A stretch of 64,000 bases of DNA, taken from contig CAMBMO010000009.1 in the NCBI GenBank assembly GCA_945868805.1, forward strand, positions 1-64,000, written 5' to 3'. Source of the stretch: Singulisphaera sp. GP187. GTDB taxonomy: Bacteria; Planctomycetota; Phycisphaerae; Phycisphaerales; SM1A02. Both the position numbers and the translations under genes were made by a program. A model generated the notes under the pieces. That model searched no databases, was not told the DNA's origin, and worked only from the letters and a program-made list of their open reading frames with translations. Positions 27,385 to 62,451 of this stretch are shown here, piece by piece; position 1 is the stretch's first letter, and every line of letters starts with the position of its first letter.

Positions 27385-27996
27385 TCAACTCGTCGCGGAT
27401 TCGCTCGCAGGAGCTGGCTTGGTCGTTTCCTTGCGAATCTTGGCCGCGAACGATGTACGCCTATCGGCGGTTGTTCGACGACCTGATGATCCGCCGGAGA
27501 CTTGCGACCCACTTTCTCGACCAACGAGTTGAAGAACGACCAGATTGGTCGCATCGCCGATTCGTCGTCGATCCAATTTCACAATCCGGGTGTAACCACC
27601 AGGCCGATCGGTAAAGAGTGGCGCAACTCGGGTCATCAAGTGATGAACCAGTCGCGGTGACTTGCGCAGTTCGCCGAATCGGTTGAACTCGATTTCGCTT
27701 GCCGCAGGAAGCGTCCAGTATGCGCTGGTCTTCCGCTCCTCCTTGACATTGGGATCAGCAACCCACGCAAAGACAGCTCGGTCCGTCAGTCGACTGTGGA
27801 GCAGTCGGCGGGCGGCGAGTGACTTGTGGCGCGCAATCGTAATCAAGCGTTCGACATACGGCTTCACGGCCTTGGCTTTCGTCAAGGTCGTGACGATCTG
27901 ACCATGTTCGAAAAGTCCAGCGGCAAGATTTCGCAGCATGGCACGACGATGATCGCTTTCAAGGCAGAGTTGTTTTCCAGCTACACGATGTCTCAT
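27385..27996 (-). CDS. rplQ: Ribosomal protein L17
   Basis: MRHRVAGKQLCLESDHRRAMLRNLAAGLFEHGQIVTTLTKAK; ATG 27996 preceded by GGAG; ORF-track start 28071 is an overextension. Confidence 0.95.
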   Translation of the reverse strand: MRHRVAGKQLCLESDHRRAMLRNLAAGLFEHGQIVTTLTKAKAVKPYVERLITIARHKSLAARRLLHSRLTDRAVFAWVADPNVKEERKTSAYWTLPAASEIEFNRFGELRKSPRLVHHLMTRVAPLFTDRPGGYTRIVKLDRRRIGDATNLVVLQLVGRESGSQVSGGSSGRRTTADRRTSFAAKIRKETTKPAPASESATS

Positions 27997-28013
27997 AATT
28001 CGATACTCCTGGT

Positions 28014-28065
28014 GTAATTCAAAGAAGCGTAATTCAAAGAAGCGTAATTCAAAGAAGCGTAATTC
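28014..28065. repeat. 15-bp tandem repeat x3.5 (gtaattcaaagaagc) in rpoA-rplQ spacer
   Basis: Copies at 28014, 28029, 28044 and partial at 28059. Confidence 0.95.
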
Positions 28066-28111
28066 GACCAACGATTCAAACTTCTGATCCGCGCCTTTCT
28101 GGCGGGATGAC

Positions 28112-29113
28112 TCATCCTCTTGAAGCGGCTCCGTCTGTCACTTGCATTCCGAGCGACAATCCGATCTCTTGCAACCGCCCCTCGATCTCATGGAGCGATG
28201 TCTTGCCGAAAGCACGAAGTTCCATCAATTCGGACTCCGTCTTCTGGATCAGCTGACCTACTGTCGTGATTCCAGCCGTTTGAAGACAATTCGTGGCCCG
28301 AACCCCAAGATTGAGATCGACCAAAGACATTCCAAACTTTCGATCGAGATCGGCGTTTGCCTCTTGATCGCAAGCGAGTCCCTGCTCGACCATCTCGTCG
28401 CCTGCGGAGTCGAATTGCACGAATGGATTGACATGCTTGCGAAGGATTTTTCCAGCTTCAACAAGTGCCATCTCGGGCGTCACGGTTCCGTTTGTCCAAA
28501 CATCGAGCACGAGTCGCTCATAGTTCATCCGCTGGCCGACTCGGGTGTCTTCGACGCGATATCGAACGCGCTGAACAGGAGTGAAGATCGCATCGAGCGG
28601 GATTTCTCCGATCACTTGATCCTCTTCGGTGTTGTATTGCTCGCTGGCGGGTTGGTATCCACGTCCACGGTTGACCGTGAGATCGACATCGAATCGAACC
28701 TTGTCGTTCAGACGACAGATCACATGATCTGGATTGAGGATCCGAACCGAAGCGTCGGACTCAATTGATGCGCCCGTCACATCGCAAGGACCTTCGACTC
28801 GAATGCGCACGGTCTTCGTTTCGTCGCCATCCATCTCAACGATCAAACCCTTGATGTTCAGCAGGATGTCCGAGACATCTTGCACGATGCCCGGGATCGA
28901 TGAAAACTCGTGGGTAATGCCCGCGATCTGCAACTTAGTGATCGCCGCGCCTTCAATGCTCGAAAGCAGAATGCGACGAAGGCTGTTGCCGATGGTGGTG
29001 CCGAAACCGCGTTCAAACGGTTCCGCAGAAAAACGGCCAAATGTCGATGTCAGGCTGCTCTTGTCAACCGTCACTCGACCCGGTAGTTCGAGACCTCTCC
29101 AGCGAATATGCAT
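28112..29113 (-). CDS. rpoA: DNA-directed RNA polymerase subunit alpha
   Basis: FERGFGTTIGNSLRRILLSSIEGAAIT, C-terminal LNLGVRATNCLQTAGITTVGQLIQKTESELMELRAFGKTSLHEI. Confidence 0.98.
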   Translation of the reverse strand: MHIRWRGLELPGRVTVDKSSLTSTFGRFSAEPFERGFGTTIGNSLRRILLSSIEGAAITKLQIAGITHEFSSIPGIVQDVSDILLNIKGLIVEMDGDETKTVRIRVEGPCDVTGASIESDASVRILNPDHVICRLNDKVRFDVDLTVNRGRGYQPASEQYNTEEDQVIGEIPLDAIFTPVQRVRYRVEDTRVGQRMNYERLVLDVWTNGTVTPEMALVEAGKILRKHVNPFVQFDSAGDEMVEQGLACDQEANADLDRKFGMSLVDLNLGVRATNCLQTAGITTVGQLIQKTESELMELRAFGKTSLHEIEGRLQEIGLSLGMQVTDGAASRG

Positions 29114-29122
29114 GATTCAAAT

Positions 29123-29220
29123 CTCCTGTGGCGGTATCCAGACCATACTGAACAGGCTCTGCCTCAATCGGAAACGCGGTACCCCGCCACAAGGTCCGCG
29201 CCCCTGCTATGGGGCAGAGC
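29123..29220 (-). promoter_or_regulatory. Potential H-type pseudoknot/bistable RNA in the rpsK-rpoA spacer abutting the rpoA SD
   Basis: Interleaved 8-bp complementarities: GCTCTGCC (29220-29213) with GGCAGAGC (29163-29156); TGTGGCGG (29191-29184) with CCGCCACA (29134-29127), adjacent to GGAG. Confidence 0.55.
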
Positions 29221-29231
29221 AATAGATGATG

Positions 29232-29606
29232 TTAGACGCGTCGCTTCTTTGGCGAACGACATCCGTTAAACGGTAATGGCGTCTGATCCTCGATGGTGAG
29301 GACCTTCAGCCCATTTGCCTGCAGGGCTGTCACGGCCGATTCTCGGCCAGGACCCGCGCCACGGACACGAACTTCGACCTCGCGCATGCCGACACGCCGA
29401 GCCTTCCCAGCTGCGCGCTCGCTCGCACGACTCGCGGCGAATGGGGTGCTCTTTCTCGCGCCCTTGAATCCCACGGTGCCTGCGGAGTCCCAGCAAATCG
29501 TCTCGCCGTTGGTATCGGTGATCGTGACGATCGTGTTGTTGAACGTCGCATTGACGTGCACGATTCCTTTGATGACATTTCTTCGAATCTTTGGTTTTTT
29601 CGACAT
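29232..29606 (-). CDS. rpsK: Ribosomal protein S11
   Basis: [42 protein letters not shown]; start corrected to 29606. Confidence 0.97.
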
Positions 29607-29647
29607 GGTGTTTTTTCCTAAATGGTCAAGGGAGCGAGTCCGATGAA

Positions 29648-30025
29648 TTAACCGTTCACGCCCTTCTTGCCTGCAACGGTCTTCTTTCGACCCTTGCGAG
29701 TTCGAGCATTCGTACGAGTGCGCTGACCACGACATGGAAGCGAACGACGATGTCTCTCGCCACGGTACGCATGGATGTCCTTGAGTCGTTGAATATCTTG
29801 AGCAACCTGCCTGCGCAATGCTCCTTCGACGATGTAACTATCGTCGATCTCTTTGGAGATGGCGGCAAGCTCCTGATCGCCGAGTGTGTGCGTCCGACGA
29901 TTCGGGTCAATACCCGTCTTCTCGAGAATCGTGGCGGCGCCCTTCGGACCGACGCCATGGATGTACTGGAGCGAAAAGAGGATTTTCTTCTTGTCTGGGA
30001 TGTCGATTCCGGCGATACGTGGCAT
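29648..30025 (-). CDS. rpsM: Ribosomal protein S13
   Basis: [54 protein letters not shown]. Confidence 0.97.
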
Positions 30026-62339: not shown

Positions 62340-62363
62340 ATTCGCTACGATTCGATTCCCCTT

Positions 62364-62451
62364 GGTGGGGTGGCAGAGTGGTCGAACGCGCCTGACTTGA
62401 AATCCGGTATGCCCTCAAAGGCATCGTGGGTTCGAATCCCACCCCCACCGT
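62364..62451 (+). tRNA. tRNA-Ser (anticodon UGA), CCA not encoded
   Basis: Acceptor GGTGGGG/CCCCACC, loop CTTGAAA, long variable arm TATGCC/GGCATC, T-arm GTGGG-TTCGAAT-CCCAC, discriminator G. Confidence 0.93.

Follow-up and report, generated by a model that had tools for sequence, protein, structure and literature searches.

A covarying pseudoknot between rpsK and rpoA as a candidate translational control element in an order of planctomycetes

Introduction

How is an alpha operon controlled when rpsD, the gene for S4, is not part of it? In Escherichia coli, S4 acts on a pseudoknot of the alpha operon and represses the operon by entrapping the 30S subunit; for Bacilli, the control of alpha operons without rpsD has been stated to be unknown (PMC10931766). 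No planctomycete is named in a published survey of 20 ribosomal leaders, and in the open papers that we searched we found no description of an rpoA leader or of a planctomycete leader. Here we analyze a 64,000-nucleotide stretch of planctomycete DNA (the window), whose alpha operon lacks rpsD and carries a structured RNA element between rpsK and rpoA. We ask whether this element is conserved, where it occurs and which protein, if any, may bind to it.

Results

The window genome is a 2.5 Mb planctomycete genome, and most of its relatives carry titles naming Phycisphaerales/Phycisphaerae or Planctomycetota. Its alpha operon is read from the minus strand in the order secY, map, infA, rpsM, rpsK, element, rpoA and rplQ, preceded by further genes. 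The rpsK open reading frame (S11, 29232–29735), whose true start is probably internal at MSKKPKIRR, lies immediately upstream of the element. The first gene downstream is rpoA (RNA polymerase alpha, 28112–29113 with a PF01000 match), which begins with an ATG at 29113 after a GGAG Shine-Dalgarno sequence (29126–29123, minus strand); these GGAG columns are conserved among relatives. The gene rplQ (L17, 27385–27996, with its start taken at MRHRVAGK within the open reading frame 27385–28071) is the only ribosomal-protein gene downstream of the element. Just 5′ of the rplQ start in the window species, at about 28010–28071 on the minus strand, a 15-nt unit is repeated in tandem in near-perfect copies (TTGAATTACGCTTCT-like, read MVELRFFELRFFELRFFEL). 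The sole tRNA within the window is a tRNA-Ser (UGA) on the plus strand (62363–62451). The genes rpsK and rpoA appear to be co-transcribed. No site around the element resembles a promoter or a terminator, and translational control is therefore its simplest reading.

The absence of rpsD from its slot, first remarked on in a preliminary description of this locus, is a feature of the order: rpsD is not at the alpha locus in any of the 44 order loci checked, and the order S13-S11-element-rpoA-L17 is kept in all 44 loci with flanks. Because rplQ follows rpoA in 44 of 44, the element is upstream of and co-directional with a ribosomal-protein gene, but rpoA comes first. In the window genome, rpsD is found on a different contig (G000:C8) beside an apparent purF. 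Its leader there (L032) is very short, with TTGACA-like and TTCAAT-like hexamers directly before the rpsD start and no structured leader seen. Separately, the window genome and most genomes of the order encode, at other places, a further protein in which two stretches resembling the alpha CTD (approximately residues 240–330 of alpha) stand in tandem.

We now turn to the fold of the element, which covers 29115–29221 on the minus strand and is recognized by two covariance models (R1, 46.1 bits, E = 6e-7; R2, 42.6 bits). All of the segments that the preliminary description had named are present at their places, and they form two perfect 8-bp stems in pseudoknot order (minus strand, 29220–29127). 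The outer stem, P1, joins GCTCTGCC / GCUCUGCC (29213–29220) to GGCAGAGC (29163–29156). It encloses an asymmetric internal loop, with AUAGCAGG on the 5′ side (29203–29210) and CCGA on the 3′ side (29168–29171), and a second hairpin, P2, whose 5′ strand CGCGGACC (29193–29200) pairs with GGUACCGCG (29175–29183) with A29180 bulged. The apical loop of P2, UUGUGGCGG (29184–29192), is the 5′ strand of the pseudoknot; within it, TGTGGCGG (29191–29184) makes the second 8-bp stem with CCGCCACA (29134–29127). Between P1 and the pseudoknot's 3′ strand there is a third predicted hairpin, P3 (UGUUCAG-UAUGGU-CUGGAUA, 29135–29154), and hairpins similarly predicted in relatives are variable in sequence and size. 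The pseudoknot proposed for this RNA is real, and it departs from a bare H-type in one respect: inside P1 sits the hairpin P2, whose loop makes the second stem.

Two further features proposed for this fold are present in the window species and are not general. At its longest, the pseudoknot extends over 29193–29184 and 29134–29125, where its 3′ strand is CCGCCACA plus a GG shared with the Shine-Dalgarno sequence; the pairs U29192-G29126 and C29193-G29125 hold two Shine-Dalgarno guanines at the cost of one P2 pair. Elsewhere the pseudoknot strand usually ends 3–7 nt upstream, and direct pairing to the Shine-Dalgarno sequence is essentially confined to the window species. We initially counted 17 apparent overlaps; 16 of these were mis-called GGAG/GGAA-like words located 17–20 nt before the start, leaving the window species. 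Likewise, the two competing hairpins from which a bistable switch had been suggested (29215–29200 and 29187–29176) are both present here, but a conserved switch is not indicated: just 28 of 94 relatives have the 29215–29200 hairpin, most of them from the window genus and a few others.

Among 3000 dinucleotide shuffles of the 115-nt region, none contained a pair of Watson-Crick stems, each 8 bp or longer, arranged as a pseudoknot, and 12 contained such a pair when the minimum was 7 bp. Without the pseudoknot, the minimum free energy of the nested fold is modestly below that of shuffles (z = −1.9); the case is therefore carried by the pseudoknot and by comparative evidence. For the latter, we collected rpsK-rpoA spacers from 18 congeners and about 40 further genera. 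Several near-identical hairpins (GATGCGACGAAGTACTCGTCGCATCC) lie 5′ of the leader in two spacers of one genus, g28 (L031 and L028, 300–356 nt), and a further sequence (L057) has a similar cluster with GCGACG repeats.

One architecture fits 94 of the family's 100 distinct rpoA upstream sequences when each is folded singly on anchors. Among the six that do not fit, the covariance model recovers L014, L118 and L119, and L144 and L164 show the element by eye or by energy. Energy-based and anchor-based predictions agree on P1, an asymmetric internal loop with the consensus ANAGMAGG on its 5′ side and CCGA on its 3′ side, P2, a pseudoknot from the P2 loop and, often, P3. Across the family, the P2 apical loop pairs with the strand just 5′ of the rpoA Shine-Dalgarno sequence. 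In an alignment-free comparison, the longest complement between loop and tail was 6 bp or longer for the own pairs of 93 of 94 sequences, compared to 34% of pairs swapped with a different type and 14% of shuffled tails.

The covariation that the preliminary description had called for among homologous spacers is strong. On an unsupervised MAFFT alignment (A1), RNAalifold picks the pseudoknot stem, with 6 of 7 pairs compensatory. We then used R1, built from P1 and P2 only, to align 95 sequences, in which the paired cells amount to 77.8% (57.6% when shuffled) and the covariation score to 0.506 (0.195 when shuffled, 0.099–0.173 when slid). None of 500 shuffles reached any of five covariation measures. 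Two-sided compensatory changes occur in 24 of 25 base pairs, including every pair of P1, though the P1 and P2 counts come from an alignment fitted to those stems and lean toward the model. The count for the pseudoknot helix, which is outside the R1 structure, is free of this bias: 89.9% of its cells are paired, and compensatory changes occur in 7 of its 8 pairs.

Unpaired positions of the internal loop are among the most conserved of all. The first G of the 5′ motif and the G of CCGA are invariant (95 of 95), columns 15 and 62 of alignment A2 being G in every sequence. Because the most conserved unpaired bases lie here, we read the internal loop (ANAGMAGG / CCGA) as a putative recognition site. 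A k-turn reading was considered and is not claimed, as there are extra bases on the 3′ side.

Next, we determined the element's distribution. Among 322 genomes of the order, R1 matched 109 and R2 matched 137, spread over six families and 71 of 146 genera with one match per genome; both counts are lower bounds, since the model misses carriers whose pseudoknot sequence is unrelated. In the window genome, the next-best match has an E-value of only 4.7. All 30 fetched matches lie directly behind the rpsK stop; in 24 of them rpoA begins immediately after the element, and in the other six no start was recognized. Of 23 genomes without a model match and with a readable rpoA start, 14 can pair loop and tail over 7 bp or more, compared to 8.7% of swapped pairs; the strands are unrelated in sequence, as in UUGCCAACAA/UUGUUGGCAA (G220) and UGCUGGCGGC/GCCGCCAGCA (G285). 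The element appears to be missing from a few genomes of the order (G210 and G213). In a class-wide sample every match belongs to the order, and other planctomycete lineages gave no significant match, whether rpsD occupies the slot or not. No copy of the element was found upstream of the relocated rpsD in 21 genomes.

An Rfam search, at the gathering threshold and at E-values up to 10, returned no relevant match and no Alpha_RBS (RF00140), the S4-binding leader of the E. coli alpha operon. With a strongly covarying pseudoknot and no Rfam match, the earlier proposal of a new leader candidate before rpoA is borne out.

Discussion

On these results, the element is very likely a previously undescribed regulatory RNA, akin to ribosomal leaders, that controls the translation of rpoA-rplQ. 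More specifically, it is probably a leader that lies within the alpha operon, acts in cis and responds to a protein, setting translation initiation of rpoA and thereby the translation of rplQ, a confidence that covers the leader role and not the identity of its ligand. By the proposed mechanism, a protein would read the internal loop and stabilize the folded form, and the pseudoknot stem, closing beside the Shine-Dalgarno sequence, would hinder or trap the 30S subunit. Excess protein would then lead to a drop in rpoA-rplQ translation. Since most relatives leave the Shine-Dalgarno sequence without direct pairing, we infer the blocking step. Stabilized pseudoknots that occlude or entrap the 30S subunit are known for S4 and S15 leaders (PMC10931766).

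Our first guess for the ligand is L17. By the convention used for leader candidates, the ligand is sought in the downstream ribosomal-protein gene (PMC7247131), and rplQ is the only one. The guess is tentative, though we rank it ahead of S4 acting in trans, of S11 or S13, and of alpha or RNA polymerase. Some other protein would be about as likely as S4, S11 or S13 somewhat less so, and alpha or RNA polymerase least of all. A covariance-model search for likeness to rRNA gave a best E-value of 0.28 on the wrong strand, and so returned no sign of the rRNA mimicry that would support a ribosomal-protein ligand. Among ribosomal-protein leaders such imitation of the ligand's rRNA site is frequent but not obligatory. 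The search used E. coli 16S and 23S rRNA and one relative's 16S rRNA, because the window genome has no recognizable 16S or 23S; its assembly is 95.8% complete without an rRNA match, and missing rRNA is common in metagenome-assembled genomes.

S4 itself, encoded elsewhere, could bind the pseudoknot in trans and repress rpoA-rplQ, if rpsD moved out of the operon and the operator was retained. The E. coli precedent of repression through a pseudoknot (PMC10931766) speaks for such an arrangement, as do the S4 leader candidates that precede rpsD-rpoA-rplQ in Bacteroidia and Flavobacteria (PMC7247131), where rpsD occupies exactly the slot from which it is missing here. By eye, moreover, the P2 arm AGAAGG...CAGCAG resembles helix 18 of 16S rRNA; the covariance model picks neither h18 nor any S4 site, and we dropped this likeness as evidence. 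The element is single-copy at rpoA, with no counterpart at rpsD in 21 genomes, so S4 would not control its own gene through it and there would be no autogenous loop. In planctomycetes with rpsD still in its slot, no significant match to the element was obtained. We regard S4 as an unlikely ligand.

The conserved structure might also act without any protein ligand, as an RNA processing or stability element, as an aid to ribosome loading, or as an insulator between the translation of rpsK and that of rpoA. Its position between two apparently co-transcribed genes is compatible with each of these roles, and any ligand is itself putative. However, the conserved unpaired bases of the internal loop and the element's fixed position relative to the Shine-Dalgarno sequence suggest recognition and control of initiation, and we consider a ligand-free role rather improbable.

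RNA polymerase alpha, or RNA polymerase as a whole, could sense its own level by binding the leader and tune rpoA-rplQ translation through the pseudoknot across the order. In every match whose start could be read, rpoA is the first gene downstream. Against this, rplQ is equally linked to the element, and we know of no case in which alpha acts as a site-specific RNA-binding repressor. Regulation of the E. coli alpha cistron has been stated not to depend on S4 (PMC10931766), which would favor control by alpha; we nevertheless hold it to be quite unlikely. Finally, chance complementarity within a GC-rich spacer, where 6-bp matches are indeed frequent (the 34% of swapped pairs), is so improbable as to be negligible, having been refuted by compensatory changes in 24 of 25 pairs, by 0 of 3000 sequence shuffles and by 0 of 500 alignment shuffles on any of five measures.

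The element is thus a control candidate that occurs across the order in one copy per genome, immediately ahead of the polymerase alpha gene, and that has precise stems and a putative recognition loop. It could couple the supply of ribosomal proteins to the supply of RNA polymerase.

Comparison with known systems

The E. coli alpha operon leader is alike in placing a pseudoknot beside a ribosome binding site in the same operon and in translational control, as proposed here. It differs in position and setting: the E. coli leader lies before rpsM, binds S4 and belongs to an operon with rpsD, whereas the present element lies between rpsK and rpoA with rpsD elsewhere. The fold is also different, as the loop of an enclosed hairpin here pairs downstream, and Alpha_RBS does not match it. 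The S4 leader candidates of Bacteroidia and Flavobacteria share a location internal to the alpha operon and would control rpoA and rplQ among other genes, but those candidates precede rpsD and are hairpins by description (PMC7247131), in contrast to a pseudoknot with rpsD absent. The S15 (rpsO) leaders of E. coli and mycobacteria also place a pseudoknot at or just 5′ of the start site, which in their case is protein-stabilized; the mycobacterial ones lie upstream of the initiation site, as here (PMC10931766). They control another gene, and shared sequence is not established. If the L17 guess is right, the element would have its ligand in common with the L17 leader candidate of Actinobacteria and Proteobacteria and with the L17 downstream element (PMC7247131; PMC2864571). 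Those are tied to rplQ, before or after it, whereas here rpoA intervenes and Rfam has no match.
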